Shown: one piece after another, positions 1 through 12,537 of the stretch | How the letters are laid out: each line of letters opens with the position of its first letter | Numbering within the stretch: position 1 is the stretch's first letter | Origin: Syntrophaceae bacterium | GTDB lineage: Bacteria > Desulfobacterota > Syntrophia > Syntrophales > Fen-1087 | Assembly (NCBI GenBank): GCA_003161855.1 | Contig: PMNM01000068.1 | Coordinates: forward strand, 1-12,537 | Length of the DNA stretch: 12,537 bases | Reading direction: 5' to 3' | Program-made: the position numbers and the translations under genes | The notes under the pieces: model-generated | Databases searched by the model: none | What the model was told of the DNA's origin: nothing | The model's input: only the letters and a program-made list of their open reading frames with translations

Positions 1-475
1 TTGAGCCGGGGATAGCGTCGCGAAGGTCGCTCATAGAAATCAGAGCGGATATGGACGCTCCGTCGGCAGCCTGAAAGTGAATCTGCTCCCTGCTCATGCT
101 CCTTGATCCCTGTTCAACAAACTCCTTAAAGAGCTCCTTTTCCTTCGGTGGGATTAACCGGTAGATGGAATCTCCTACTATGCTTTCAAGCGGTGTCTTG
201 ACCATGTCTGCGAAGCGCTGGTTGCAATAGAGAATCATACCGTCGGGAACCAGAGTCACAGCGCCTTCGCTCATGGTTTCCACCATGACCCGATAGGGCT
301 GCTCGGCACCCTTCAGCGTGAAGATCTGCGCACCCGTAGCCGTTTCGATGGCGAGGGCATCCACCTCGCCGCTGCTGATTGCACGGAGGGTCTCTTCCGC
401 TTCCGCCAGCCGCGACTCCAGATGCTCCACTTTGGCCAGGAGATCTTCCCGGCGTGTTTTTTGAGGTTTGCTCAT
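1..475 (-). CDS. PAS-domain sensor protein, probable histidine kinase (partial, C-terminus off the window)
   Basis: The reading frame is open from the ATG at 475 to the left edge, giving 158 codons of the N-terminus. Residues about 5-35 are charged and helical, with heptad-like spacing (EDLLAKVEHLESRLAEAEE), and run into LRAISSGEVDALAIE and a QIFTLKGAEQPYRVMVE segment. A PAS fold follows, with MSEGAVTLVPDGMILYCNQRFADMV and then GDSIYRLIPP. From memory this N-terminal layout is typical of PAS histidine kinases encoded beside kaiBC in proteobacteria. The kinase domains would lie outside the window, so the kinase call is inferred. It starts 8 bp after the kaiB2 stop, with an AAGAAGG ribosome-binding stretch just upstream, so it is the last visible gene of the Kai operon. 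It probably senses a signal or carries KaiBC state to the cell's response. Alternatives are a PAS-only protein or a diguanylate cyclase. Confidence 0.8.
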   Translation of the reverse strand, partial: MSKPQKTRREDLLAKVEHLESRLAEAEETLRAISSGEVDALAIETATGAQIFTLKGAEQPYRVMVETMSEGAVTLVPDGMILYCNQRFADMVKTPLESIVGDSIYRLIPPKEKELFKEFVEQGSRSMSREQIHFQAADGASISALISMSDLRDAIPGS

Positions 476-483
476 TACCTTCT

Positions 484-831
484 TCACGACTTCCTTGGTC
501 TTAAATCAATTCCCACCAGGAACTTTTCCGTATCGGACATATCGCCGATAAGCCTACGAAGCGGCAGGGGGAGCTTCTTGATCAATGTGGGGGCCGCGAT
601 AATCTGCTCACCCTTGGCAAGCTTGGGCTGCTGATAGATATCGATGACCTCGAGTTCGTAGCGGCCTTTTAGATATTCTTCGCAGATTTTTTTGACATTC
701 ACGATCGCCTTTGTCGATCTGGGGGTTATCCCCGTGACATAGAGGCGCAAAATGTATTTTTCCTCATTGGATCTTTTCAGAGCTTTTTCATATTCCCGGT
801 CGCCTGTCTTGGTCTTCTCCTTCATCATCAT
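484..831 (-). CDS. kaiB: KaiB-family protein, second copy (divergent)
   Basis: A 115-residue KaiB homologue. The thioredoxin-like KaiB core runs from YILRLYVTGITPRS (about 26-39) through a CEEYLKGRYELEVIDI stretch to the motif LIGDMSDTEKFLVGIDL. In known systems KaiB binds the CI ring of KaiC and switches fold to do so. It differs from copy 1 at the proline cluster: Pro88-Leu89-Pro90 here against three prolines there. It also carries a longer charged N-terminus (about 25 residues) and a basic C-terminus. Three ATGs in a row start at 831, 828 and 825. GGAG at 834-837 is only 2 nt from the first but 5 and 8 nt from the next two, so the true start is likely 828 or 825. It lies 26 bp after kaiB1 and 8 bp before the PAS gene, so it is co-transcribed. 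Family assignment is secure; its separate role is unknown. Confidence 0.93.
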   Translation of the reverse strand: MMMKEKTKTGDREYEKALKRSNEEKYILRLYVTGITPRSTKAIVNVKKICEEYLKGRYELEVIDIYQQPKLAKGEQIIAAPTLIKKLPLPLRRLIGDMSDTEKFLVGIDLRPRKS

Positions 832-857
832 TACTCCGTGTATTTATTTGATGAGTT

Positions 858-1184
858 TTATGCAGTCTTGATGTCGAGCCCGACTAATACACGTTGCGTG
901 TTGGCCAGATCTCCGATGAGCTTTTTTACCGGCGGTGGAAGTTGCCTCACCACGGTCGGGATGGCGAGGATCTGGTCTCCCTTTGCAAGCAGGGGATTCT
1001 TCAGAAGATCTATGATCTCGATCTGATACTTGCCGGCAAGGTACTCTTCGCAGATGCATTTGAGATTGGCGAGGGCCGCAATGGATTTCGGCGTCTGCCC
1101 CGCCACGTACAGCCTCAGTATCCAGACTTCTTCGACGGGAGCCGATTTGGCCGGCTTCTTTTTCTCAACTGGCTTATTTTTCAT
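858..1184 (-). CDS. kaiB: KaiB-family protein, first copy (canonical)
   Basis: A 108-residue protein very close to textbook KaiB. It has [14 protein letters not shown] (21-34), [20 protein letters not shown] (58-77), an intact Pro83-Pro84-Pro85 and [17 protein letters not shown]. It should bind KaiC in the cytoplasm and modulate its ATPase and phosphorylation state. The frame stays open far upstream, up to 1511, but that part overlaps kaiC in another frame and resembles nothing. The ATG at 1184 lies one base past the kaiC stop, follows an AAGGACG Shine-Dalgarno stretch inside the kaiC 3' end, and gives the normal KaiB length, so I chose it. The lysine-rich first 18 residues are an extra relative to cyanobacterial KaiB. 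The near-abutting junction with kaiC points to translational coupling and roughly matched production of the two partners. Confidence 0.96.
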
Positions 1185-1185
1185 C

Positions 1186-2919
1186 TCACGTCCTTTTTCT
1201 CCCTTTTTTCCGGGAATCCGTTGAACGATCCGCTTTGCGCAGACGCGCCATCTCAGATCGGTTCGCGATCCCAACTTTGTGTCTTTTCTTTTCATCCGCA
1301 GAAATAATATGCAGTTCCTCGGACTCCATGTCAAACTCAGAGCGCAGGCCCTCGATCTTGGCCTCCAGGACTTTGCGTTTGCGTTCCGCCTCGTGCGTTC
1401 TCCGGTCCACTTCGTACTGATAGTCCCTTGCCTCTTCCTTTTCCTTCGCTTCCTGTGTCGCACGGGCACTACCGGTGAGTACCCCTCCCGGACCGAGATA
1501 GACGTCCACAAGCTCGATGCCGCGGTCGCTGAGCAGGACTTCGCGAATCTGGTTGGAGTGCGCCATGCCCCGGGACTTCAAGATATACAGCCCGCGGTTG
1601 CGCTCCCCGTTGATTTCGATATCACGCAGAAGGATCCAGGCATCGATAAGGGATGATATCTCTTCGTTCGTCCGCTCCAGGCTGCTTCCAAAATGGATCA
1701 GGTCCGTGAGAAGCGTGGTGACATGACTCGCCTTCAGGTAATCGAAGAGACGCGTGAGCACCGATTTAACTTCGACGGGGGTCCCCACGGCCGTCAGGTT
1801 GCTGACCGGGTCCACGATGACGATTTTGGGCTTGAACTCGACGATCAGTTTATGGATCGTGACGAGGTGCATCTCCAGCCCGTAAAGGGAAGGACGGCTT
1901 GCGTGAAACTTGAGTCTCCCCTTTTTCACCCAGGGAGCGAGGTCTGTGCCGATAGACTTCATATTGCGGATGATCTGGTTGGTCGACTCCTCGAAGGCAA
2001 GGTAGAGGCAGCGCTCCCCGCGCTTGCAGGCGGCCTCAACAAACTTGGTCGCAAAGCTGGTCTTTCCCGTTCCCGCCGTGCCGGAGATGAGGATGGTGCT
2101 TCCACGGTAGAAACCATTCCCGGCCAGCATATTGTCAAGGCGCGGTATACCCGACGAGATGTGTTCGTTAGAAACGGTATGGTCTAGGAGGAGAGATGTC
2201 AATGGCAGGATGGAAATGCCTGTTTTCTCGATGAGGAAGGGATACTCGTCCGCGCCGTGGGAAGAGCCCCGGTACTTGATGATGCGCAAACGCCTGGTGG
2301 AGATCTGTTCCCTGATCCGGAAGTCGAGGAGGATTACGCAATCGGCCACGTATTCCTCAAGGCTGTAGCGGGTCAGGCTCTTCTCCCCGCTTTCTCCCGT
2401 GATGACGGCCGTGATTCCCCGGTCTTTCAGCCAATGGAAAAGCCTGCGAAGCTCCGCCCGCAGAATCCCGACATTGGTCAGTCCGGAAAAGAGGGATTCG
2501 ATGGTATCGAGAACGATCCGTTTCGCCTTGATCGAATCGATGGCATAAGCCAGGCGGATGAAAAGACCTTCAAGGTCGTATTCGCCCGTTTCCTCGATTT
2601 CGCTCCTCTCGATATAGACATGATCCATGGCGATAAGCTTGCGGGCGATCAGATCATTCAGGTCATAACCCAGGGAGGCAAAGTTCTGAGTCAGGTCTTT
2701 GGGGGTTTCCTCGAAGGAAACGAAGACACCCGGCTCCTTGTACTGAATAGCGCCCCGCAGCAGAAACTCCATAGCCAGCACAGTCTTTCCGCATCCGGCG
2801 CTCCCGCATATCAAAGTGGGACGGCCTTTCGGCAGTCCGCCGCTGCTGATTTCGTCAAATCCCCTGATGCCGGTCGGGCACTTTTTCAGAACAATCGCTT
2901 GTTGAAGCTTTGCCATCAT
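1186..2919 (-). CDS. kaiC: KaiC-family ATPase/autokinase with C-terminal coiled-coil tail
   Basis: A 577-residue double RecA-like ATPase. The CI domain shows Walker A GSAGCGKT (39-46), the catalytic Glu pair E70-E71 in SFEETP, and Walker B ending at D138. CII shows GTAGTGKT (280-287), E310-E311 in FEES and Walker B IVIVDP with D370. The CII phosphorylation site, Ser-Thr in Synechococcus KaiC, aligns with Ser422-Ser423 in [13 protein letters not shown]. Residues about 485-577 are an extra charged, helical, coiled-coil-like tail ending in a basic stretch. Cyanobacterial KaiC is about 519 residues and lacks this tail. Such tails are known in proteobacterial KaiC, including Rhodobacter sphaeroides, where the tail joins two hexamers into a dodecamer and the system works without KaiA. 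Two start codons lie in tandem; GGAGG at 2923-2927 is 3 nt from the ATG at 2919 and 6 nt from that at 2916, so 2916 may be used. First gene of the operon. Confidence 0.96.
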
Positions 2920-2960
2920 GCACCTCCGTTATGGCTGAGATGAGTTTATAAAGTTACCAT

Positions 2961-2974
2961 ATAGGATATCCTAT
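2961..2974. promoter_or_regulatory. 14-bp perfect palindrome upstream of kaiC (candidate operator)
   Basis: ATAGGATATCCTAT is a perfect inverted repeat of 7-bp arms with no spacer, centred about 48 bp upstream of the kaiC start. GGATA or AGGAT recurs just beyond it at 2975, 2981 and 2989. Its position between the AT-rich tract and the kaiC ribosome-binding site fits an operator for a dimeric regulator, but palindromes of this size can occur by chance in AT-rich DNA. No regulator can be named. Confidence 0.35.
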
Positions 2975-3108
2975 GGATAGAGGATGTCAGGATAATAAAA
3001 ATATCCCATCTAAAAAGATTGCTATTTTTATTCAGAATTTAAAAGAAATGCAACAGAAATATTTGACTTAAGGTATCAAAAAAATCTTAGAAAATATCAT
3101 TCAATGGG

Positions 3109-3198
3109 TTAGAAAGCTTTTCCCACCGATCTACCACCCCGGGGTAAGACCATCGTGACGCGAGTCCCGTTGCTGATCTTTCCCCCAGAACTTGTACC
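3109..3198 (-). pseudogene. Possible remnant of a histidine-kinase C-terminus
   Basis: On the minus strand an open stretch ends at a TAA (3109-3111). It encodes GTSSGGKISNGTRVTMVLPR followed by nine more residues. NGTRVTMVLPR resembles the last strand of a HATPase_c domain, where kinases end with a G-T-x-x-T-hydrophobic-x-L-P pattern. Nothing upstream in the frame looks like the rest of a kinase, there is no start codon with a ribosome-binding site, and the frame closes at a TGA near 3276. It may be the decayed tail of a lost sensor kinase, or chance. Confidence 0.2.
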
Positions 3199-3222
3199 CT
3201 GTGTTAAGTTAGAGTTCCGCAG

Positions 3223-3275
3223 TTTTTTGATTATTTCCGATTGAAAGGTTGAGTGAATTGGGGAAATTCAAAAAA
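3223..3275. repeat. Imperfect inverted repeat in the gap before kaiC
   Basis: TTTTTTGA at 3223-3230 is matched by TCAAAAAA at 3268-3275. The match resumes as TTTCC (3234-3238) against GGAAA (3262-3266), with a small asymmetric bulge and a 23-nt loop. It could be a weak hairpin or terminator-like structure, or a degraded repeat end. The arms are mostly A/T, so it is weak as a transcription terminator. Confidence 0.3.
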
Positions 3276-3366
3276 CAACATATTTCTATCTACCGGGTAT
3301 GATCTCTATTGATCAAGGTTGGAGAGAGGGGTGGCCGGTCAGAACGATCATTTGACGAAAAAATTT

Positions 3367-3480
3367 TTATGCCTTGGCGCGTGTAGATTTACCAGAACGT
3401 CTCTTCTTCTGGAGACGGGTTTTGCCATGCGTCCCCCGATGGATCTTGCCCCGCCTTGAACGTTGATCACCTTTACCCAT
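3367..3480 (-). CDS. Small ribosomal subunit protein bTHX (30S protein Thx)
   Basis: A 37-codon gene on the minus strand. The product starts MGKGDQRSRRGKIHRGTHGK and continues with a basic tail (KKRRSGK, ending TRAKA). The MGKGD start and the R-R-G-K-I-x-R-G-T-x-G-K core are the signature of bTHX (Thx), first described in Thermus 30S subunits, where it lies in the head and stabilises packed 16S rRNA. The length is a little above the Thermus form because of the extra basic tail. AAGGAG lies about 8 nt upstream of the ATG, a strong ribosome-binding site. It begins 44 bp after the mltA stop on the same strand, so it may be read through from the nadK-recN-argA-mltA operon; no separate promoter was identified. 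The size makes it easy for gene callers to miss. Confidence 0.92.
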   Translation of the reverse strand: MGKGDQRSRRGKIHRGTHGKTRLQKKRRSGKSTRAKA

Positions 3481-3524
3481 TGAACAGTCTCCTTATCAAA
3501 TATTTGTGAAGAGCATAACGATTC

Positions 3525-4781
3525 CTACCGATTTGTCAAGCCATTCCCGATCGGTGAGCTTTTTACCTTCTTTTTAACCAGAAAGTACAGGATCCCTTTT
3601 TCCTTCAAACTCCCTGCCAGTTGCTCTGCCTCCGGCCCGTCTCCGCAGAACAGATCAATCCTTCCCGGTCCCTTGATTGCGGCTCCGGCATCCTGGTTGA
3701 GTACAAAACGCGAGAAAGGAACCCAAGCCTGCACCTTTCCCCCTGGATCAAGCTGAGGTTTCTGTGCCTTCATGAAAGCGAGCGCCCCCTTTGGAAAAAA
3801 GTCCGGGTCGGTAGCAATGGAGCGGCCGGATGTAACGGAGATCTGCAAGGCGCCCATCGGACCGTTCTCCACTCTCTGAAAAAATATATATCGTTCGTTG
3901 AAATTAAAGATTTCCGCACACTCCTCCGGATGTTCCCGGAGGTAGTTTTTGATATTCTGATAGGCCATGTCGCGCCCGGCGATTCTGCCATGGTCTAACA
4001 AAAACCTGGAAATGGATTTAAAAGGCCTGCCATTGGACTGGGCAAAGCTCACACTGATGATCTGACCATCGGGCAACCTGATCTTTCCCGAACCCTGGAC
4101 ATGCAGTTGAAAGAGTTCAAAGGGATCATCCACCCATACCATCTCAAGATGGCGACCTCTGAGTACGCCCTTTTCGTCAATGTCCCTGCGGCTGTAATAG
4201 GGAACCAGATCGCCCTCCTCCAGCCGGCCGATCCTCTGTCCGCTCTTGAATTTTTTATTGACTTCGTTGAGATTGACGACGATCAGATCATCCGGCGTCT
4301 CATAGACCGGATAACGGTATCTCTCGGTCATGACGGGAGAACCATTCAATAACGGCACATAGTATCCGGTAAAGAGCATGGTTCCTCTTTCATCCATGCC
4401 CGCGGCCTGATAGAACTCGAAAGATTCCCTGATTTTTTTTGTCTTGATTTCCACCGCGTCGGGACGCTGTATGATTTCCCGGAAAAGTATCAGGGATTCC
4501 TTTAATTCGCCGGCGCTGACTTGACGGTTTCCAAAACGATAGGTCCCGGCGGGAACCCGCTCGTAATATTGAAGACTCCGGTCTATGGCGGCCTCTAATG
4601 AAGGAAGATCCAGATCATCGAGCAATGAAAGGACGTCGTCTCCATCAATCAACGTCAGAGGGGCAGAAAATCTTTGCACGGGTTTTTCAAACAGGGCCGC
4701 ACAGCCTGTCAACAACAGACTGACGGCCAGTAGAATCATGCAGAAAAGCAGGTGATTTCTATGCGTCGCTCTATTTTTCAA
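3525..4781 (-). CDS. mltA: Membrane-bound lytic murein transglycosylase A (MltA-type lipoprotein)
   Basis: A 418-residue outer-membrane lipoprotein that should cleave the MurNAc-GlcNAc bond of peptidoglycan, forming 1,6-anhydromuropeptides. The N-terminus is a lipoprotein signal: basic start, hydrophobic core and lipobox LLTGC with Cys27. The MltA barrel domain spans about 120-320 (TGYYVPLLNGSP, GDLVPYYSRRDID, FQLHVQGSGKIRL). The 3D domain follows with NQDAGAAIKGPGRIDLFCGDG (about 362-382). Asp364 and Asp376 align with E. coli Asp297 and the catalytic Asp308; there is one extra residue between them. The length is somewhat above E. coli MltA (about 365). The start codon overlaps the argA stop by 4 bp (ATGA), so translation is likely coupled. 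No GNAT-transglycosylase functional link is known; this is probably operon convenience. Confidence 0.95.
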   Translation of the reverse strand: MKNRATHRNHLLFCMILLAVSLLLTGCAALFEKPVQRFSAPLTLIDGDDVLSLLDDLDLPSLEAAIDRSLQYYERVPAGTYRFGNRQVSAGELKESLILFREIIQRPDAVEIKTKKIRESFEFYQAAGMDERGTMLFTGYYVPLLNGSPVMTERYRYPVYETPDDLIVVNLNEVNKKFKSGQRIGRLEEGDLVPYYSRRDIDEKGVLRGRHLEMVWVDDPFELFQLHVQGSGKIRLPDGQIISVSFAQSNGRPFKSISRFLLDHGRIAGRDMAYQNIKNYLREHPEECAEIFNFNERYIFFQRVENGPMGALQISVTSGRSIATDPDFFPKGALAFMKAQKPQLDPGGKVQAWVPFSRFVLNQDAGAAIKGPGRIDLFCGDGPEAEQLAGSLKEKGILYFLVKKKVKSSPIGNGLTNR

Positions 4782-5236
4782 AGATCGATCACCATCGCCA
4801 CTTCGTCACAGTAATCGGGGTACTTGGAGCACCGGAAGCAGTCAGAGAATATCTTTTCGGAGAGACTGGACCGTTCCACCTCTTTGAATCCCAGATGAAC
4901 AAAAAAATCCTTTTTGTAAGTCAGGGTGAATATCCGGTAGAGCTGAAGTGTGATGGCCTCGGAGATACAGGCTTCTACAAGATTCCGGCCGATGCCCCGG
5001 TTTCGATATCCTTCCTCCACGTACAGGGAACGAACCTCAGCCAGATTCTCCCAGATGATGTTCATGGCGCAAATACCGGCGATGGTCACCGTTTCCTCAT
5101 CAACATAGACAAAGAAATCCCGCAGACTTCCGTAGATATCCATGAGAGCGCGCGGGAGTACCTCCCCTTTCCCGGCTGAGATGTTAATCATCCGGTGGAT
5201 CGTTTTAACATCGCCAATTCGTGCTTTTCTCAACAT
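4778..5236 (-). CDS. argA: Short-form N-acetylglutamate synthase-like GNAT acetyltransferase
   Basis: A 152-residue GNAT-fold protein. Acetyl-CoA motif A is seen as RSLYVEEGYRNRGIGRNLVEAC (RNRGIG at 78-83 binds the pyrophosphate). The conserved LTYKKDFFVHLGF lies at 105-117. The C-terminal SDCFRCSKYPDYCDEVAMV carries Cys133, Cys136 and Cys143. This Cys-containing tail and the LPRALMDIYGSLRDFFV segment (27-43) match my memory of short, single-domain enzymes annotated as ArgA in Geobacter-like bacteria. Those make N-acetylglutamate from glutamate and acetyl-CoA, the first step of arginine synthesis, without the amino-acid-kinase domain of E. coli ArgA. Only 3 bp separate it from the recN stop, and it overlaps mltA by 4 bp. 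AAGGA about 9-10 nt upstream supports the ATG at 5236. Substrate specificity is inferred; a general GNAT is the alternative. Confidence 0.82.
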   Translation of the reverse strand: MLRKARIGDVKTIHRMINISAGKGEVLPRALMDIYGSLRDFFVYVDEETVTIAGICAMNIIWENLAEVRSLYVEEGYRNRGIGRNLVEACISEAITLQLYRIFTLTYKKDFFVHLGFKEVERSSLSEKIFSDCFRCSKYPDYCDEVAMVIDL

Positions 5237-5239
5237 CGT

Positions 5240-6922
5240 TCACATTCCTTTCCTGCCTGCCCTTTCCAGCATTTCCCGGGCGTGTTCTCTCGTTTTCTTT
5301 GTCAATTCCACCCCACCGAGCATGCGGGTCATCTCGTTCAGTCGCTCTTCCCCGGACAGCATGTCGACACAGGTACTGGTTTTGCCGCCGGCCACAACCT
5401 TGGTGACCTGGTAATGCCGGTCACCAAAACAGGCAATCTGCGGCAGATGGGTGATACACAACACCTGATAATGCCGGGCAACGTCTCTAAGTTTCTCTCC
5501 GACAATTTCCGCCGTGGCCCCGCCGATGCCGCTGTCCACTTCATCAAAGATGATGGTCCCCACGAACCCGGCGCGGGCCAGAACCTTTTTCATGGCCAGA
5601 ATGATCCGCGACAACTCTCCTCCAGAGGCAATACGATTCAAGGGTTTCAGCGTTTCTCCCACGTTCGTGGAAAGATAAAACTCTGCGTCGTCCATGCCCC
5701 GTTCGTTATAATGTGCCTCTTCGTCATCTGCTTTAAACTGTACCTTAAATTTTGTGGCTGACATATTCAGGGCATGGATCTCCTTCTCGATAGCTTTTTC
5801 CAGCAGGGTGGCCTTTTCCCGCCGCTTCCGGGAGAGGAGATTCGCCTGTTCCCCCATCGTCGCTTTCCGGACGGCCAGCTCTTCGGAAACCCTTTCCATC
5901 TCCTCATCGACAAAGGAGATCTCCTTTAATTCGGTCTCCAAGGCGGATTTCCTGGCCAACACCGCCTCCAGCGTCCCCCCGTATTTCCTTCTGAGCCGGC
6001 CGATCAGTTCCAGACGGTCATCAATAGCCTCCAGTCTTGCCGGATCGAGAGCCGCATGTTTCGTGTAATCACGCAGGGTCAGGGCCGCATCCTCCAATTG
6101 ATAGTACAGGTTCTCCATGTCCTGTTCGGACAGGGACAGCGTGGTGTCAATTTTCTTGATTTCCCGGATATCCGCGATGACCCCACGAAGTTCCTCAAGA
6201 ACACAACTGCTTTTTCCATAGAGCCGGTCATGGGCGCGAGCGGAGGATTCCATCAGTTTCTGAATATTGCTTAAACGTTTTTTCTCTTCCTGCAACGTGG
6301 TATCTTCACCGACGGCGAGCCCGGCATCCTCGATTTCCCGGAGTTGAAACCTCAGGAAATCCTCCCGTTCTGCCCGCTTCTCATTCATCGCCTGCAGCGA
6401 TCTGATCCGGTCTTGCCGTGCCTGAACCTGGCCATAACATTCGGCGTATGCAGAGCGGATGGATAAAAGGTCGCCGAACTCATCCAGAATGTCGATGTGA
6501 TGATCGGCATTCAGAATGATCTGGTGCTCATGCTGTCCGCAGATATTCAGCAGGGATTCACTAATCGCTGACAGGATGCCCAGTGTTGCGAGATGACCGT
6601 TAATATAAACCTTATTCTTGCCGGAGCGGGAGATGACGCGCCGGATCATCAGTTCATGTCCGTCATCAAAGCCCATCTCCTGCAACTTCCCTTGCAGCGC
6701 CGGATTTTTTCGGATATCAAAAAGAGCCTCGACCACCGCAGAATCCTCGGAAGACCGGATCATGTCCGCGGATGCACGGTCACCCAGCAGCAGGCTCACA
6801 GCGCCGATGATAATCGATTTGCCGGCCCCGGTTTCGCCCGAAATGACATTGAGACCGTCGATAAAAGAGACCGTCAGTTCATCAATGATGGCAAAATGTT
6901 TAATGTTTAATTCAATCAGCAT
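5240..6922 (-). CDS. recN: DNA repair protein RecN (SMC-like ATPase)
   Basis: A 560-residue protein of the usual RecN length (E. coli 553). The N-terminus has the family opening MLIELNIKHFAIIDELTVSF and Walker A GETGAGKS (29-36). Two long helical, coiled-coil arms (about 165-240 and 320-390) flank the central region. The C-terminal head has signature SGGELSR (433-439), Walker B TIIFDEVDSGIGG (456-468) and the H-loop CITHLPQIA (489-497). RecN is an SMC-family ATPase that gathers and bridges DNA at double-strand breaks for RecA-dependent repair. All ATPase motifs are intact. The start overlaps the nadK end by 11 bp, giving tight coupling; nadK-recN pairing is common in bacteria. In enterics recN is in the SOS regulon. 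I see no obvious LexA box near this start, so any control would act at the nadK promoter. Confidence 0.98.
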   Translation of the reverse strand: MLIELNIKHFAIIDELTVSFIDGLNVISGETGAGKSIIIGAVSLLLGDRASADMIRSSEDSAVVEALFDIRKNPALQGKLQEMGFDDGHELMIRRVISRSGKNKVYINGHLATLGILSAISESLLNICGQHEHQIILNADHHIDILDEFGDLLSIRSAYAECYGQVQARQDRIRSLQAMNEKRAEREDFLRFQLREIEDAGLAVGEDTTLQEEKKRLSNIQKLMESSARAHDRLYGKSSCVLEELRGVIADIREIKKIDTTLSLSEQDMENLYYQLEDAALTLRDYTKHAALDPARLEAIDDRLELIGRLRRKYGGTLEAVLARKSALETELKEISFVDEEMERVSEELAVRKATMGEQANLLSRKRREKATLLEKAIEKEIHALNMSATKFKVQFKADDEEAHYNERGMDDAEFYLSTNVGETLKPLNRIASGGELSRIILAMKKVLARAGFVGTIIFDEVDSGIGGATAEIVGEKLRDVARHYQVLCITHLPQIACFGDRHYQVTKVVAGGKTSTCVDMLSGEERLNEMTRMLGGVELTKKTREHAREMLERAGRKGM

Positions 6923-7799
6923 CTGGATGATTCCCCGTCGGCAGGCCTCCCCAGCCCAGTTTCGTCCTCAGGATCTCCAGATAATCCCGGTGCGGCGAGG
7001 CGACCAGGGTCGTCACATAGCGAGATTTCTGAACCCTGATGGTATCCCCTGATTTCAGGGTAAAAGACACCTGCCCATCCAGGGTCAGGGTAGCCCCTTG
7101 CTCTTTCGTCCAGAGAATGACTTTAACCCGGACATCCTCCGGCAGGATGACAGGCCGGTTCGTCAGGGTGTGGGCACAGATCGGATTGAGGATCATGGCA
7201 TTCTGCTCCGGGAAAATGATCGGACCGCCGGCGGATAGGGAATAGGCCGTTGAACCGGTGGGCGTCGCGATAATCAGGCCATCGGCCTTAAAAGTGGCCA
7301 GATGCCGGTCATTGATGGCTGTTTCCAGTTCCACAATTCTGGAAAGGTTGGCCCGGTTGATGACCACTTCATTGAGCACAGTGCCTTCACCAACCGTCTC
7401 GCCGTGACGGTCGGCGACGACGTCGAGCATCATTCGCTTTTCCGTCTTGAAATTGCCCTCGATGATCATTCCCAGGGCATTGATCATTTCGTTTAAATTA
7501 ACCTCAGTCAGATAGCCAAGCCCCCCGATGTTGATCCCCAGAATCGGGATGTCATATCCGCAAACAGCACGGGCTACTCTCAGCATGGTCCCGTCACCGC
7601 CAAAGACCACGATGAGATCCACGGCAGCAGCCAGGTTACTTCGTTCCAGCCCTGTGGATTCGCCAATCCGAATGGCAACAGCGTCATCCAGAAAGACCTG
7701 TAATCCCTGATGCAGCAACCAGTCTCTCAGACGGATGACATAGGCCGAAGACTTTTCCTTGGCAATATTAGCGACAATACCGATCTTTTTTATATGCAT
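6912..7799 (-). CDS. nadK: NAD kinase
   Basis: A 295-residue cytosolic ATP-NAD kinase that phosphorylates the 2'-hydroxyl of the adenosine ribose to make NADP. Signature elements are all present: FGGDGTMLR (66-74) with catalytic Asp69, GINIGGLGYLTEV (88-100), VLNEVVINR (141-149) with the NE motif, and TPTGSTAYSLSAGGP (179-193). The length matches the family (E. coli 292). The ATG at 7799 follows AAGG about 7 nt upstream. It is the first gene of the minus-strand operon, overlaps recN by 11 bp and diverges from rdgC. A minus-strand promoter should lie in 7800-7890. TTGCAA followed after 16 nt by TAGAAA is the best candidate I see, but it is weak. The leader also has the inverted repeat GTAGAA-N9-TTCTAC (7814-7834). 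Confidence 0.98.
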   Translation of the reverse strand: MHIKKIGIVANIAKEKSSAYVIRLRDWLLHQGLQVFLDDAVAIRIGESTGLERSNLAAAVDLIVVFGGDGTMLRVARAVCGYDIPILGINIGGLGYLTEVNLNEMINALGMIIEGNFKTEKRMMLDVVADRHGETVGEGTVLNEVVINRANLSRIVELETAINDRHLATFKADGLIIATPTGSTAYSLSAGGPIIFPEQNAMILNPICAHTLTNRPVILPEDVRVKVILWTKEQGATLTLDGQVSFTLKSGDTIRVQKSRYVTTLVASPHRDYLEILRTKLGWGGLPTGNHPDAD

Positions 7800-7813
7800 G
7801 GCGAAACCTTGCA

Positions 7814-7834
7814 GTAGAATAACCAGATTTCTAC
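7814..7834. repeat. Short inverted repeat in the nadK leader
   Basis: GTAGAA (7814-7819) and TTCTAC (7829-7834) form a perfect 6-bp inverted repeat with a 9-nt spacer, ending 15 bp before the nadK start. It could be a small operator or an RNA hairpin. Arms this short may be chance. Confidence 0.25.
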
Positions 7835-7889
7835 CATAAATAAAGGGCTTTGCAAAACTGAATTTTGACTGAGGAACTTTTCATTCAAC

Positions 7890-7918
7890 TTGACATCCCC
7901 CTGGAAACTGCGTAATGA
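7890..7918 (+). promoter_or_regulatory. Sigma70-type promoter of rdgC
   Basis: A perfect -35 box TTGACA (7890-7895) is followed after exactly 17 bp by TAATGA (7913-7918), a 4/6 match to TATAAT. Transcription would begin near 7925, giving a leader of about 19 nt that contains the AAGGAGG ribosome-binding site (7932-7938). The position just before rdgC and the ideal spacing make this the clearest promoter in the window. Confidence 0.75.
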
Positions 7919-7943
7919 GGTTCCACTCTTGAAGGAGGCATAC

Positions 7944-9041
7944 ATGGGATTATTAAAAGGCGCCTTAACCTTTTCACGATACCGGCTGATCGGTGACCTG
8001 CCGGATCAATTTTCCGAGCGAATCGATCAGCAGATCCGGAAGTTCGCCTTCCAGAATTTGAAAAAAAGCGCTGAGGAAAAGATCCTGGGCTGGACCAGTC
8101 TGGAGAACGTGTTGGATACGGATTTCCAGTATTCGTCTTATGCCTGGGGTGACTATCTCATTTTTTCCCTGCGCATCGACCGGTGGATGGTTCCCGCTTC
8201 CCTGCTTAAAATTCGCATTTTGGAAGCAGAAAAACAATATCTCACCGAAACAGGCCAAAAGAAAATCGACAGATACCGGCGTGAGGACATCAGGGAAAGG
8301 GTTCGTCTCGACCTTCTGAATCATACCCAGCCTGTTCCCACATTTTACGAAATCTGCTGGTCTGTTTCCGAACAGTCTGTACTGTTCACCTCGCTGTCCG
8401 ACAAAGTGGTCGATGATTTTCAGGATTTATTCAAGCGGTCTTTCGATAGGACCCCCTGCCCGTTTGTCCCCTGGGATCAGCAGTTTATGGATCCGGGGAC
8501 CGCCGTGAAAATGACCACTCCGGAAATGGACCTGAAGTTGCCGGGAAGGGAATTTCTGACCTGGCTGTGGTTTAAAAGTGAAGAGCGCAACGGCATGATC
8601 ACCCTGCCCGACGGCAGTGAGACGGAGGTGATCTTCGTGCAAAGGCTGGTCCTGGAATCGGGTGACGGGGAATACGCGGAATCCGTGGTCTGCCAGGGTT
8701 TCCATGCCGATCTGAAGGAGGGAAGAGAAGCACTGCGCCGGGGTAAGAAAATAAAAGAGGCGCGCATCAAGCTTTCCAGAGATGCGGCTTCCTGGGAATT
8801 TACCTTCAAAGCGGACCGGTTTCAATTCCAGTCTCTGAAACTTCCCCTCATCATGGACAGTGATGAGGAACAGGATGACCGGAGCGGCCGGGTCCTGGAG
8901 CGCCTTTATCTGCTGGAAACAGTCATCCGTACCATGGATCAGCTCTTTTCGCTGTTCCTGAGTCTCCGCCTGTCCGATCAGTGGCCGAAGGAATGCATCC
9001 GCCTGGACAAATGGCTCCGGCAGGCCATAGATAAGCCTTGA
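7944..9041 (+). CDS. rdgC: Recombination-associated protein RdgC-like
   Basis: A 365-residue protein starting MGLLKGALTFSRYRL. RdgC features include the N-terminal LTFSRYRLIGDLP strand, GWTSLENVLDTDF (49-61), the central ILEAEKQYL...KIDRYRREDIRERVRLDLL block (about 92-125) and VPTFYEICWSVSEQSVLFTSLSDK (131-154). In E. coli RdgC is a toroidal dsDNA-binding protein that restrains RecA. This member is longer than the E. coli one (about 300 residues), with a GREFLTWLWF segment (201-210). I recall that segment from related deltaproteobacterial proteins. The frame is open further upstream to a TTG at 7890, but that codon lies in the -35 box. The ATG at 7944 has AAGGAGG 5 nt before it. It is divergent from the nadK-recN operon, so two recombination genes share an intergenic region. 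Confidence 0.85.
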   Translation: MGLLKGALTFSRYRLIGDLPDQFSERIDQQIRKFAFQNLKKSAEEKILGWTSLENVLDTDFQYSSYAWGDYLIFSLRIDRWMVPASLLKIRILEAEKQYLTETGQKKIDRYRREDIRERVRLDLLNHTQPVPTFYEICWSVSEQSVLFTSLSDKVVDDFQDLFKRSFDRTPCPFVPWDQQFMDPGTAVKMTTPEMDLKLPGREFLTWLWFKSEERNGMITLPDGSETEVIFVQRLVLESGDGEYAESVVCQGFHADLKEGREALRRGKKIKEARIKLSRDAASWEFTFKADRFQFQSLKLPLIMDSDEEQDDRSGRVLERLYLLETVIRTMDQLFSLFLSLRLSDQWPKECIRLDKWLRQAIDKP

Positions 9042-9100
9042 CATCATTGACAATATTTGATGATGGAAGTCACAGTAAATCCTGAAAAAGGAGGATCATC

Positions 9101-9835
9101 ATGAATTTGAAAACAGTAGGCCTTTGCATCAGTGTCATCGTTATTCTTGCATCCACCACCCTTGCCTTCGCCGTCACCCCGGAGGAGTCCCTGAAAAAAA
9201 ACTTCCCCAATATTCCCCCCATCGACAATATCACGCCATCCAAGATCCCCGGTCTTTATGAAGTGATTTCGGGAGGGCGGATTTTCTACTATGCCCCGGA
9301 AGCGGAGTGCATCGTCGACGGTCAGATCATCATGAAAGGCGGCAGAAATCTGACGGTGGAAAAATATCAGGAAATTGAACAGAAGCACCTGGCCGCGATG
9401 GCCCTGAAAATCAAGGACCTCCCGCTGGACAAAGCGGTGAAGATCGGCAAGGGAAAAAATCGGGTCATCGAGATTACCGATCCGGATTGCCCTTACTGCC
9501 GAAGGGCCGCTGAATTTTTCGCCGGTCGCAAGGATGTGACAAAATATGTTTTCCTCTATCCGCTTGACATGCACAAACAGGCGGAAGAAAAGGTCCGCTA
9601 CATCCTCTGCGCCAAGGACAAGGCCAAAGCCTATGAGCAGGCCATGACCGGGAAACTGGATGATATGAAATTCAAGACCTGCAAGGACGGCAGCGTCGAT
9701 AAGCTGGTTAAAACCCATAAAGACGTGGCTGCCCAGCTCGGTGTCACCGGAACGCCGTTCTTCTTCATTAATGACCAGCCGGTGTCCGGCGCGAACATCC
9801 CCCTGATCGAGAAACTGCTGGGATCCAAAGATTAA
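9101..9835 (+). CDS. dsbC: Periplasmic thiol:disulfide isomerase, DsbC family
   Basis: A 244-residue protein with a signal peptide (basic MNLK, hydrophobic core to about residue 22, AFA cleavage motif near 22-24), so it acts in the periplasm. The N-terminal DsbC dimerisation domain is recognisable (IPGLYEVISGGRIFYYAPE, 49-67). The thioredoxin-fold domain has the active site CPYC (130-133) in TDPDCPYCRRA and the cis-proline loop TGTPFF (Pro219). Cys170 and Cys194 match in spacing the second, structural disulfide of E. coli DsbC. DsbC shuffles wrong disulfides and needs DsbD to stay reduced; no dsbD is in the window. An extra Cys70 lies in the dimerisation domain. AAGGAGG is 6 nt upstream of the ATG. 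It starts 59 bp after rdgC and may be read from the same promoter, though a functional link is unlikely. Confidence 0.93.
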   Translation: MNLKTVGLCISVIVILASTTLAFAVTPEESLKKNFPNIPPIDNITPSKIPGLYEVISGGRIFYYAPEAECIVDGQIIMKGGRNLTVEKYQEIEQKHLAAMALKIKDLPLDKAVKIGKGKNRVIEITDPDCPYCRRAAEFFAGRKDVTKYVFLYPLDMHKQAEEKVRYILCAKDKAKAYEQAMTGKLDDMKFKTCKDGSVDKLVKTHKDVAAQLGVTGTPFFFINDQPVSGANIPLIEKLLGSKD

Positions 9836-9904
9836 AAGTCGAAGACCCTATCCATCATTCGTCATGGAGAGAAAAAAGCGGGATTTTACGACTTGCGGGA
9901 CACA

Positions 9905-11401
9905 TTACCTTGATTTGTGAGGTCTTCTTAACGTCAGGACGTGATGGATGCATTTGGGTATTTCATCCTGATAATGGGTCACATAAAGAAGGTTCGTATC
10001 CGTGCGGGCACCGATCTTTTCAATCATGTCCAGGACCCGTCTGCGGTTTTCCTGGTCGAGTCCCTGGCAGGGTTCGTCAAGGATGAGTAAATCCGGTGAT
10101 TTCACCATAGACCGGGCTAAGAGTGCCATTCTCTTCTCTCCATAAGAAAGTTGGGTGAACGTCCTGTCAGCGATATGCAATAACCCGAAGAACTGAATCC
10201 ATCGATGGACACGTTGGTGTTGTTGGGTGGTTAGTTTCCTGTAAAGGCCGACGGAATCAAAAAGACCGGATGCCACGACATCATAAGTCATGATCTCGTT
10301 TCTATAGCGAGCCTGAAATTCAGACGAGATCATCCCGATTCGCGCCTTGACATCCCAGATACTCTCACCCGATCCTCTGCGTTTTCCAAATAAATAAATT
10401 TCATTAGCATAGGCTTGTGGATGATCTCCGGCAATCAGGCTTAACAACGTGGTTTTCCCCGAACCGTTGGGGCCGACGATCGCCCAGTTTTCGCCACGTT
10501 TAAGCATCCAGTCCAGGTGATCGATAATCTGTACATCTCCGTATTTCACGGCAACGCCTTTCATTTCCACGAGTATTTCCTGATTCCGTGAGGAAGAATT
10601 TATACCATCGGAGACACTTCTGCGCACCGGAGGAAATGAGATGATTTTTTTCTCATCGTATAGACGGCCCATCTGTTCTCGTGTCAGGATATCGTGACGC
10701 TTCCCTTGGAGAAAGACCCTTCCTTTTTTGACACAGAGCACATGAGAGATGCCTGGGAGTATTTCTTCCTCACGGTGAGTGACAAGAATAAGCTGCATCC
10801 CCTGCCTCATCAATGCACCGATGGATTCTTTCAATCGTTCCCGTGAATCAACATCGATTCCAGCGAAAGGTTCATCAAGGATCAGAATCACCGGAGATTT
10901 TATAAGAGCCCGGGCGATGAGCACCTTTCTCATTTCCCCCGTGGAGAGATAGCGAATATTTCGGTCCAGAAGATAGCGGATTCCCAGAAGGTCGACAATC
11001 CGCTCCAATTCAGGATGCCCGTCACCTTCATCATGATCGCCGGCAAGAATCGTTGATCTTGCTTTTTCAAAGTCATTCAGTTTGCGGGTAAAATAGCGTG
11101 CCCCATCTTGAGATTCTTCCCTGGCGATCAGACGTTCCTGGAGTTCGGATGAAACGTAACCTATGATTTCAACAGGACGATTGGGAAAATGATACGTGAT
11201 GCTGCCCCGGACATAGGGGATGTCACCGATCAGAACCCTGACGAGTGAAGATTTACCGGCTCCGTTGGGTCCAAGGATCGCCCAATGCTGGCCAGTCAGA
11301 ATTTCCCATGAAGTTTGGGGAAGAATAAACTTGTCACGGATGCGGATCGTGATGTCCTGAATCGTGATCACGGGCTTCTCTTCGTTACTCAAATAATCCA
11401 T
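9905..11401 (-). CDS. modF: Tandem ABC ATPase, ModF-type
   Basis: Two ABC ATPase domains in one soluble chain of 498 residues, with no membrane segment. Domain 1: Walker A GPNGAGKS (44-51), signature LSTGEMRKV (152-160), Walker B LILDEP with Glu177, H-loop His209. Domain 2: Walker A GPNGSGKT (310-317), signature LSYGEKRMA (418-426), LLILDEPCQGLD (438-449), His476. The second-domain run GLFDSVGLYRKL and LSYGEKR closely resemble E. coli ModF (about 490 residues), whose exact role is unclear. No molybdate transport genes lie nearby, so the symbol reflects family only. The frame extends to a GTG at 11437, but the promoter at 11443-11471 would put the transcript start there. The ATG at 11401, with GAGGA about 13 nt upstream, is preferred. 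It converges on dsbC. Confidence 0.85.
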   Translation of the reverse strand: MDYLSNEEKPVITIQDITIRIRDKFILPQTSWEILTGQHWAILGPNGAGKSSLVRVLIGDIPYVRGSITYHFPNRPVEIIGYVSSELQERLIAREESQDGARYFTRKLNDFEKARSTILAGDHDEGDGHPELERIVDLLGIRYLLDRNIRYLSTGEMRKVLIARALIKSPVILILDEPFAGIDVDSRERLKESIGALMRQGMQLILVTHREEEILPGISHVLCVKKGRVFLQGKRHDILTREQMGRLYDEKKIISFPPVRRSVSDGINSSSRNQEILVEMKGVAVKYGDVQIIDHLDWMLKRGENWAIVGPNGSGKTTLLSLIAGDHPQAYANEIYLFGKRRGSGESIWDVKARIGMISSEFQARYRNEIMTYDVVASGLFDSVGLYRKLTTQQHQRVHRWIQFFGLLHIADRTFTQLSYGEKRMALLARSMVKSPDLLILDEPCQGLDQENRRRVLDMIEKIGARTDTNLLYVTHYQDEIPKCIHHVLTLRRPHKSR

Positions 11402-11442
11402 CCTGTCAAAAAATTCCTCTTTTACAGATGAACGCACCGTTG

Positions 11443-11471
11443 CTTATAAAGGGTCATGAGGTATATTTCAA
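11443..11471 (-). promoter_or_regulatory. Sigma70-type promoter of the ModF-type gene
   Basis: On the minus strand TTGAAA (11466-11471) is followed after 17 bp by TATAAG (11443-11448). Each box matches consensus at 5 of 6 (-35) and 4 of 6 (-10) positions, with ideal spacing. Transcription would begin near 11436, leaving a leader of about 35 nt to the ATG at 11401. Confidence 0.55.
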
Positions 11472-11534
11472 CTTCAAATTGGCTGGATCAGATCCTTTTG
11501 AGCATGAGGAGACAATTAAAAATATTCAAATCGC

Positions 11535-11572
11535 ATGAGACATGATAAATACTCAGACGATCCGTGTCTCAT
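11535..11572 (+). repeat. Inverted repeat upstream of the MFS gene
   Basis: ATGAGACA (11535-11542) and TGTCTCAT (11565-11572) are perfect 8-bp arms around a 22-nt loop; one wobble and one further pair can extend the stem inward. The stem, or the DNA palindrome, could be an operator for the divergent MFS and ModF-type genes. CATGAG also recurs at 11455-11460, 11503-11508 and 11534-11539. Confidence 0.45.
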
Positions 11573-11579
11573 TTGGCAG

Positions 11580-11598
11580 GTAAGGGTACCTTACTTTT
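11580..11598 (+). promoter_or_regulatory. Hairpin plus T-run in the MFS leader (possible attenuator)
   Basis: GTAAGG (11580-11585), loop GTA and CCTTAC (11589-11594) make a perfect 6-bp stem followed by TTTT, 8 nt before the ATG of the MFS gene. The stem contains the only AAGG-like stretch near the start. It may therefore act as a weak terminator or hide the ribosome-binding site. The stem is short, so this is tentative. Confidence 0.35.
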
Positions 11599-11605
11599 AA
11601 AAAAT

Positions 11606-12537
11606 ATGGTCTTAAACGCAACAACTTCCGCCCGTCCGAAAGGTTTGAAACTGATTTTCCGGACACTGCGTTATCGAAATTACCGTCTCTTTTTTGCCGG
11701 GCAGTGCATATCCCTGATTGGCACATGGATGCAACAGATCGCGTTGAGTTGGTTGGTGTATCGCCTGACTCATTCTGTCTTCCTGTTGGGAATGGTTGGT
11801 TTTGTCGGTCAATTTCCCACATTTTTATTTGCCCCTTTTGCAGGCGTCCTGTCTGATCGATGGAATCGCCTTCATATTCTGATTTTTACACAATCGATGT
11901 CCATGCTCCTGGCTATGACGTTGGCCATTCTTGTTCTGACGGGAGCCATTGCCGTCTGGCATATTCTCTTATTAACTCTGTTCCTCGGTTGTGTGAATGC
12001 CCTGGATATCCCCACACGACAGTCATTTGTCATCTATATGATTGATAAGAGAGAGGATTTAGGAAACGCCATTGCATTGAATTCTGCCATGTTTAATGGT
12101 GCCAGGTTTTTAGGGCCTTCTGTTGCAGGTCTCTTGATTGCCGTTGTTGGCGAAGGGATTTGTTTTCTCCTCAATGGACTCAGTTATCTGGCTGTTATTG
12201 CGGCCTTACTCGCCATGAAGCTGTCACCTGTCCACTCCGAAAGCATGAAAACAAACATGCTCCATGATTTTAAAGAAGGATTAGCCTATACCTTTGGTTC
12301 GCAGCCGATCCGATCTATTCTCCTTCTCCTTGCCTTAACCAGCTTCATGGGTGTTCCTTATGCTGTGCTCATGCCTGCCTTTGCCAGAGACATTCTCCAT
12401 GGAGGTCCCCATACCCTCGGTTTTCTAATGTCGGCAACCGGAGCGGGAGCCTTGCTTGGCGCTGTTTATCTTGCATCGCGAAGAAGTATTATCGGCCTGG
12501 GGAAAATCATTCCAATCACAGCAGGCATTTTTGGTAT
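11606..12537 (+). CDS. MFS transporter, probable drug/metabolite exporter (partial, C-terminus off the window)
   Basis: The frame is open from ATG 11606 to the right edge, covering 310 codons. After a basic cytosolic N-terminus (RTLRYRNYRLFFAGQ, 19-33) come alternating hydrophobic helices. Loop 2-3 has the MFS motif A form GVLSDRWNR (80-88), and residues 132-143 give NALDIPTRQSFV, the D-x-P-x-R motif of the EntS-like (MFS_3) exporter group. About eight or nine membrane segments are visible. It should use the proton gradient to export small molecules; the substrate is unknown. The start is uncertain. No good Shine-Dalgarno lies at the usual distance from ATG 11606, and in-frame GTG (11564) and TTG (11573) also exist, though the family's homology begins after 11606. 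It diverges from the ModF-type ABC gene; two hairpins lie in its leader. Confidence 0.88.
   Translation, partial: MVLNATTSARPKGLKLIFRTLRYRNYRLFFAGQCISLIGTWMQQIALSWLVYRLTHSVFLLGMVGFVGQFPTFLFAPFAGVLSDRWNRLHILIFTQSMSMLLAMTLAILVLTGAIAVWHILLLTLFLGCVNALDIPTRQSFVIYMIDKREDLGNAIALNSAMFNGARFLGPSVAGLLIAVVGEGICFLLNGLSYLAVIAALLAMKLSPVHSESMKTNMLHDFKEGLAYTFGSQPIRSILLLLALTSFMGVPYAVLMPAFARDILHGGPHTLGFLMSATGAGALLGAVYLASRRSIIGLGKIIPITAGIFG

Follow-up and report, generated by a model that had tools for sequence, protein, structure and literature searches.

SasA and CikA constitute the output of the cyanobacterial KaiABC clock. Operons of the kaiC-kaiB-PAS/histidine kinase type are described, in excerpts of the respective papers, for Rhodopseudomonas palustris and Rhodobacter sphaeroides (PMC4794148, PMC6627678); a PAS kinase adjoins kaiBC in R. 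rubrum (PMC10931921), and a magnetotactic member of the Nitrospirota carries several kaiBC clusters among kinase genes (PMC10278575). Here we describe a kai operon at the end of a contig of a Syntrophaceae bacterium (GCA_003161855.1). The window, i.e. the whole stretch of DNA analysed, comprises bases 1-12,537 of the 51,261-bp contig C149, so that the first base of the window is base 1 of the contig. The first-pass annotation of this window described kaiC, two different kaiB genes and a PAS domain gene on one strand, with gaps of 1, 26 and 8 bp, a layout that is borne out by the open reading frames (ORFs), the sequence and the Pfam matches; the two KaiB proteins share 54% identity over 89 residues. 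The operon itself belongs to a kind that is known and widespread. What is new is the fourth gene, with its short Kai-linked module and interchangeable outputs. Beyond what that annotation noticed, the arrangement occurs widely, and the output domain that follows the PAS module changes from one operon to the next. These genes would encode, with a probability of about 0.6, a KaiA-independent, ATP/ADP-sensing KaiBC hourglass or switch that is read out by an interchangeable, module-bearing partner protein.

The fourth protein shares with the cyanobacterial SasA and CikA the presumed role of reading the KaiC-KaiB state, but it contains no detected KaiB-like domain, and KaiA was not found. The hourglass system of Cereibacter (Rhodobacter) sphaeroides KD131 resembles the window operon in its full-length KaiC with the coil and the Ser-Ser pair, in its kaiC-kaiB-kinase order, and in the presence of the same module on its HWE kinase; it differs in having one KaiB (of the KaiB1 type, see below) versus two here and in that its output is an HWE kinase, whereas the output here is unseen. 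The R. palustris kaiC-kaiB-PAS/histidine kinase operon has the same gene order and is likewise KaiA-less, but the portion of the paper used here describes one kaiB (PMC4794148). A 2011 paper on Ramlibacter reports kaiC-kaiB followed by a histidine kinase or a GGDEF/EAL protein, and also RtaNt, a shared N-terminal domain, weakly KaiB/SasA-like, of a kaiB-less group; the parts covered of that paper include no sigma-54, LuxR or HD-GYP outputs and no short module (PMC3164672). In the portions of the open-licence PMC literature that were searched, neither the module, nor outputs of these three kinds, nor KaiB1 and KaiB2 as conserved operon partners were found, which argues weakly for novelty. No output protein is contained in the solved KaiC_RS and KaiB_RS entries encountered.

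An alignment of 19 rows (A2), with the window protein as row 1, shows conservation over the first ~60 residues of the fourth protein; A32, I33, D39, Y61 and R62 (positions in row 1) are invariant in it. We propose that this region represents a Kai-linked module family; the window protein matches A2 by construction, whereas the plasmid tblastn matches described below are independent. None of the best Pfam stretches listed for the window fragment and for 19 further module proteins covers the module region, and no SasA-type KaiB-like N-terminal domain was detected in the window PAS fragment or in the 19 scanned module proteins. The hydrophobic positions of the module follow a 3-4 heptad spacing, with an a/d contrast of p 1e-4 in a permutation test (best of 7 registers) that was chosen after the spacing had been noticed; for the helical moment at 100 degrees, p is 0.12, which is not significant.

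A search of 395 genomes of the phylum with A2 identifies matches at E <= 1e-5 in 28 genomes and 31 places. All 25 places with strong matches (at least 85 bits; 23 genomes) lie directly behind kaiB, and in 24 of these kaiC precedes kaiB; in the remaining one, G370, the module follows kaiB2 directly on a 6.3-kb contig where no kaiC is seen. Nineteen of the 25 strong matches are rows of A2 itself, and the six that are new to A2 (G370, G260, G232, G338, G255 and G080) are all kai-linked. Five of the six weak places are found behind more distant kaiC-kaiB pairs (L175-L179). When the comparison starts from KaiC, the module is present behind 23 of 23 places with at least 57% identity over at least 350 residues (in G080, the operon is split over two contigs). 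Counted by genome, 26 contain both the module and KaiC, 2 the module only, 20 KaiC only, and 347 neither (p 5e-26); after exclusion of the 17 genomes that give rows of A2, the respective counts are 9, 2, 20 and 347 (odds ratio 78, p 1.3e-9), both p values treating genomes as independent and ignoring their relatedness. Thus, the proposal of the first-pass annotation that the PAS protein reads out or feeds the KaiBC state stands in part: that the two work together is suggested by the near-exclusive linkage of the N-terminal module to kai genes, and the choice between output and input is a matter of the likelihoods weighed below.

The same linkage is seen on plasmids. Among 72,556 plasmid records, 16 contain a KaiC match at E <= 1e-60, and a tblastn search with the 92-aa module fragment of the window hits 13 records, all of them among these 16 and being those with about 52% KaiC identity or more; the module lies 0.3-0.7 kb behind kaiC on the same strand. 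Nine of the 13 are from C. sphaeroides (including KD131 and 2.4.1), so that these are far from 13 independent cases. The gene order is kaiC-kaiB-HWE kinase on the KD131 plasmid, with the module at the N-terminus of the kinase, and kaiC-kaiB-kaiB-hybrid kinase on a Pararhizobium plasmid.

Loci from named genomes were picked by KaiC and accordingly gauge the constancy of the module rather than its specificity. Among the best 80 such loci, 74 contain a module scoring above 40 bits, and 64 contain both KaiBs and the module. As for the module-less ones, L065, L087 and L098 reach the contig end, L102 has a weak match, and L133 and L137 lack a detected KaiB or module. The latter two loci, from Ignavibacteriota, encode long KaiC proteins (581 and 578 aa, about 61% identical), with no KaiB or module detected nearby. 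In the whole genomes behind 32 of the 80 loci, which were picked for variety, the module is found in 31, in a single place in 27 and in 36 places altogether, and the places compared by coordinates fall within the contig ranges of the kai loci. Second strong copies in G402 (C81) and G424 (C213) are parts of second kai operons, and in G412 two module places are located within one ORF.

The domains fused to the module vary widely. In 115 kaiC loci, the first module protein is a histidine kinase in 33 (plus 2 cut), a hybrid kinase in 25, a sigma-54 activator in 8, a GGDEF/EAL protein in 3, an HD-GYP protein in 3, and a LuxR helix-turn-helix (HTH) protein in 1, with other or PAS-only proteins in 13 (plus 8 cut, the window included); the classes were assigned with our own profiles anchored on Pfam scans, and L050 and L077 are the same record. 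In the remaining 19 loci no module exceeds 40 bits, and some contain a weak one. Among the 120 listed of 355 protein database matches, the module at 88% identity precedes both sigma-54 activators and HisKA kinases. On a KaiC tree, the output class changes 28 times, compared with a minimum of 6 and with 45 in shuffles; the tree is a quick one of 113 rows (L077 and the short L187 were dropped), of which 86 are labelled, and 37 of its 110 inner branches are open. Changes forced by well-supported branches alone amount to 10 for histidine kinases (HK), 12 for HK-REC, 3 for sigma-54 activators, 3 for GGDEF/EAL and 2 for HD-GYP proteins. Therefore, outputs are clustered on the tree yet have been swapped many times.

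Several individual loci deserve mention. L075, from Geomonas propionica, is an example of a complete operon. L052 (3967-7737; G194) has the order kaiC-kaiB1-kaiB2-module HisKA_3 kinase-kaiB2'-module sigma-54 activator, i.e. the unit of kaiB2 and a module gene occurs twice. The proteins P0126 and P0138, a module HisKA kinase and a module sigma-54 activator, both have a longest contig of 7961 and are perhaps neighbors as in L052. In L182 (377-1798; G277), the gene behind a more distant KaiC (40%) with KaiB encodes a sigma-54 activator in which no module was detected. A large module-PAS-hybrid kinase is encoded on C220 of G400 (L234, 6518-11770), with no kai gene in the stretch taken.

Judged by its sequence, the KaiC of the window is of the KaiC2, or Rhodobacter sphaeroides, type. 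According to the portions of two papers used here, this subgroup is marked by Ser-Ser phosphosites and a C-terminal extension of about 50 residues (PMC10076222, PMC5520375). The window protein contains Walker A motifs at residues 39-46 and 280-287, two RecA-like domains with catalytic Glu pairs, and, as in that subgroup, a C-terminal extension from about residue 490, with a coiled coil aligned with the PDB entry 8DBA to residue 568. This entry, R. sphaeroides KaiC, is the best solved match, with E 2.1e-193 and residues 10-568 aligned, the coil included; the identity to the C. sphaeroides KD131 protein is 51% over 569 aligned residues. In the alignment, residues S422 and S423 fall opposite the two positions occupied by E-E in the phosphomimetic entry 8FWI, and both serines are present throughout 20 aligned KaiCs.

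Both KaiB proteins match the KaiB domain PF07689 (90.3 and 89.9 bits, cut-off 27) and score 102 and 99 bits, under the cut-off of 110, with the stricter NCBIfam circadian KaiB equivalogs. In a tree of 200 KaiB rows (matches over 60 bits, from ORFs with exactly one match), the labels KaiB1 and KaiB2 change 3 times versus 66 in shuffles; the labels come from our own profiles and hence favor few changes, and many forks of the tree are unresolved. The split is also reflected in gene order: where a locus has a single copy of each gene, the order is kaiC-kaiB1-kaiB2-module, without exception in 80 loci (including L045, the frame of which passes through N), so that the order pointed out in the first-pass annotation proves conserved across relatives. 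When the rows of 12 distant loci are set aside, the first strand carries W in KaiB1 (87% of 94) and Y at the same position in KaiB2 (91% of 95); further, Y (88%) and Q (93%) are retained in KaiB2, which is also N-terminally extended, at positions that show L (74%) and mixed residues in KaiB1. The one KaiB that R. sphaeroides has is scored as KaiB1 and is nearest to KaiB1 rows on the tree, so that, on this evidence, KaiB2 has been studied less than KaiB1. KaiB2 forms a conserved KaiB subfamily of its own and is probably a non-redundant partner. Extra KaiBs stand before KaiB2 in L070 (three KaiB1-like ORFs) and L067 (two KaiB1). Apparent fusions were rejected: the KaiB2-PAS ORF in L045 passes through a stretch of N and is no evidence of fusion, and the long KaiB ORFs of L057 and L058, which resemble KaiB-KaiB fusions, have N termini that are out of frame.

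In other Kai systems, KaiB binds phosphorylated KaiC and aids its return. By homology, the window KaiC would need no KaiA to autophosphorylate on S422/S423, and two hexamers would be joined through the coiled coil at its C terminus; KaiB1 may bind phosphorylated KaiC and help it to return. For KaiC_RS, it is described, in the portion of the paper used here, that the extension builds a dodecamer and that the ATP/ADP ratio drives the clock (PMC10076222). By analogy with KaiC_RS, KaiA-free autophosphorylation, a dodecamer and ATP/ADP drive are predicted for the window KaiC, and the KaiBC state might track the cellular ATP/ADP ratio as an hourglass or energy switch. The linkage and the fusions described above suggest that the fourth protein couples to the KaiC-KaiB state through its ~60-residue N-terminal module, whereby the PAS domain would relay that state to the fused output, be it a histidine kinase, a hybrid kinase, a sigma-54 or LuxR-type protein, a cyclic di-GMP (c-di-GMP) enzyme, or nothing. 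Gene content, conserved order, KaiC type, KaiB subfamilies, module-kai linkage and output swapping are observations; physical docking, the direction of the signal and timing are what we infer.

KaiBC might instead be an energy or stress switch that is truly coupled to the fourth protein but has no role in timing, a possibility to which we would give slightly under even odds. Stress roles of KaiC are reported for Legionella and Pseudomonas, in the latter case 'without evidence for circadian function' in the passage available (PMC11832031), and the phosphorylation rates of KaiC_RS given in the excerpt used, several per hour, imply minutes rather than a day (PMC10076222). The failure to find a photosynthetic reaction centre (PF00124) in the host genome also fits this possibility. 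COX1 (PF00115) was not found there either, control genomes being positive in both cases; this assembly of 1.8 Mb in 197 contigs is 84% complete, which limits all genome-wide negatives reported here. Among the best 120 listed relatives of the RecN protein that adjoins the kai operon, 12 have an organism name, namely 8 Syntrophales/Syntrophus, 3 Deltaproteobacteria and 1 Pseudomonadota. The anaerobic, non-phototrophic host supposed by the first-pass annotation agrees with these results, which point to a likely non-phototrophic anaerobe of Syntrophales kin. The same annotation called the system KaiA-less, and the genome-wide search for PF07688 agrees with this, with 0 matches in the 84%-complete genome against a positive S. 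elongatus control, so that kaiA is likely absent from the host. On the other side, the portion used describes R. sphaeroides KaiBC as a primordial clock that is driven by how ATP/ADP differs between day and night (PMC10076222), and a slow switch and an hourglass are inseparable by sequence alone.

Alternatively, the PAS protein could be the input, sensing oxygen, redox or another cue and setting the KaiBC state. Such a role is proposed in print for the R. sphaeroides kinase, in the excerpts at hand (PMC5520375, PMC10931921), and the best PDB matches of the module plus PAS profile are to the oxygen sensor DosP, although through the PAS part alone (profile positions 65-176). We consider this unlikely, given that fusions to a sigma-54 activator with a Fis-type HTH, to a LuxR HTH, to GGDEF-EAL and to HD-GYP are output-like and that an input to KaiC would not require so many effector domains; the PAS domain could still add a second signal.

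Several observations weigh against a readout of KaiBC through the module. The evidence for docking is gene linkage, and partial distance correlations of the module with parts of KaiC and with the KaiBs, computed over 75 operons, are weak, at most 0.19 (coil) and 0.15 (KaiB1), with no partner singled out. The module persists beside coil-less KaiCs (L061, L184 and L185) and is present in operons where only KaiB1 or only KaiB2 is detected. More distant KaiCs often lack a strong module. A strong module copy in G400 (C220) lies away from kai genes in a genome with a complete kai operon; a weak one in G402 (C67) lies in a stretch without kai genes, and the weak module of G289 has no kai gene in the 16-kb stretch around it. 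Finally, the output domain of the window protein is unseen, and the module-PAS protein of the nearest relative, L043, ends after 194 residues. Because the module persists without the coil and with either KaiB alone, its sole partner can be neither the coil nor a particular KaiB; the remaining candidates are the KaiC body and either of the KaiB-KaiC complexes.

The fourth gene is incomplete because contig C149 ends there. A DNA search with window bases 1-160 matched only itself in the host genome. Contig C101, which begins near a kinase ORF, was tried as the continuation and rejected, as this ORF begins with a start of its own and is unrelated at the N terminus; judged by coordinates only, no further candidate is offered by the genome's 7 proteins with a sigma-54 domain or its 17 HATPase matches. 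It might be suspected that the operon is decaying or output-less in this host. In L043 (G035), the KaiC of which is 84% identical, the module-PAS gene (3780-4364) stops as noted above, a short stretch behind the stop resembling the beginning of a further PAS domain, and the host assembly is small. Nevertheless, all four window frames are open as far as visible and tightly spaced, and a stand-alone module-PAS protein of 235 aa in the Bacteroidales record L101, with similar ORFs in other Bacteroidota loci, indicates that the short form may be normal; decay thus appears improbable.

The operon is patchily distributed. Full KaiC is present in 1 of 3 genomes of the family (this one), and KaiC matches at E <= 1e-40 in 46 of the 395 phylum genomes. 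Within the same order (16 genomes listed), KaiC occurs only in this genome and in G349 (70% identical). The nearest KaiC, at 84% identity, comes from G035, a member of a different family, on a 4.8-kb contig for which misbinning is possible. The best 80 named loci fall into 12 named phyla plus 3 unranked records (Bacteroidota, 20; Thermodesulfobacteriota, 15; Pseudomonadota, 14; Myxococcota, 6; Planctomycetota and Verrucomicrobiota, 5 each; Methanobacteriota, 3; Acidobacteriota, Nitrospirota, Chloroflexota and Ignavibacteriota, 2 each; Spirochaetota, 1), most of these being metagenome-assembled genomes, so that single phylum labels may be wrong. The module is found in 11 of the 12, not being seen in Ignavibacteriota among these loci. 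The patchy spread (1 of 3 family genomes and 2 of 16 same-order genomes, own included) and the similar operons in 11 named phyla point to horizontal spread and would suit a co-transferred operon with a purely historical linkage and no contact between the module and the Kai proteins, but this is quite improbable, as hitchhiking gives no reason why a short module stays while the output class changes 28 times on the KaiC tree.

A broader view, which we advance tentatively as falling a little below an even chance, is that the module is a dedicated Kai-docking adaptor, unlike the KaiB-like domain of SasA; that it made the KaiC2-type KaiBC pair a portable timing or energy-state cassette of 11 or more phyla; and that KaiB2 is functionally distinct and kept for readout. 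The core would then have been plugged many times into two-component, sigma-54, LuxR and c-di-GMP circuits, some of the records concerned being labelled archaeal. If the module is the docking part, this ~60-residue piece opens the readout of KaiA-less KaiBC to a direct test in C. sphaeroides. From the range of fused outputs one would also learn what each host times or gauges, be it sigma-54 transcription, a phosphorelay or the c-di-GMP level, and KaiBC timers may be general-purpose parts that bacteria rewire.

The features of the operon are listed in Table 1. The Pfam matches of all four genes are above the cut-offs and therefore not due to chance: two stretches of the KaiC ATPase family with E 4.6e-112, KaiB with E 6.8e-26 and 9.0e-26, and PAS_9 with E 5.8e-9. 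The genes are separated by 1 bp (1185), 26 bp (832-857) and 8 bp (476-483), the last value assuming that the PAS protein starts at the ATG at 475; an alternative GTG start at 487 would give a 4-bp overlap with kaiB2.

Table 1. Features of the kai operon in the window (positions in window coordinates)
Feature	Position	Strand	Description and basis
kaiC (KaiC2 type)	1186..2919	-	577 aa; CI and CII ATPase domains; ORF list, Pfam, alignment
kaiB1	858..1184	-	108 aa; KaiB1 subfamily; Pfam, own profiles
kaiB2	484..831	-	115 aa; KaiB2 subfamily, N-terminal extension, DIYQQP signature
Fourth gene, N-terminal 158 aa	2..475	-	module and PAS domain; cut by contig end
Kai-linked N-terminal module	approx. 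305..475	-	~57 residues, heptad-patterned stretch and linker; no Pfam match
kaiC upstream region	2920..3330	-	AT-rich, 37.5% GC

Scans of window bases 2800-3500 for sigma-70 promoters and terminators gave chance-level matches only, e.g. the sigma-70-like matches upstream of kaiC at 2990-2963 and 3257-3230 (shuffle mean 1.4). A sigma-54 promoter before kaiC, which would indicate autoregulation, was considered and dropped: a -24/-12 consensus had matches upstream of 0 of 8 sigma-54-type operons and none in the window. Upstream of the kai operon, the window encodes the 30S ribosomal protein THX (3367-3480, minus strand, 37 aa; TIGR04560, 44 bits, cut-off 26), in a reading frame shorter than the minimum length used for the ORF list. 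Farther away, the ORF at 7890-9041 on the plus strand encodes a divergent RdgC-like protein (Pfam, 28.9 bits, cut-off 25).

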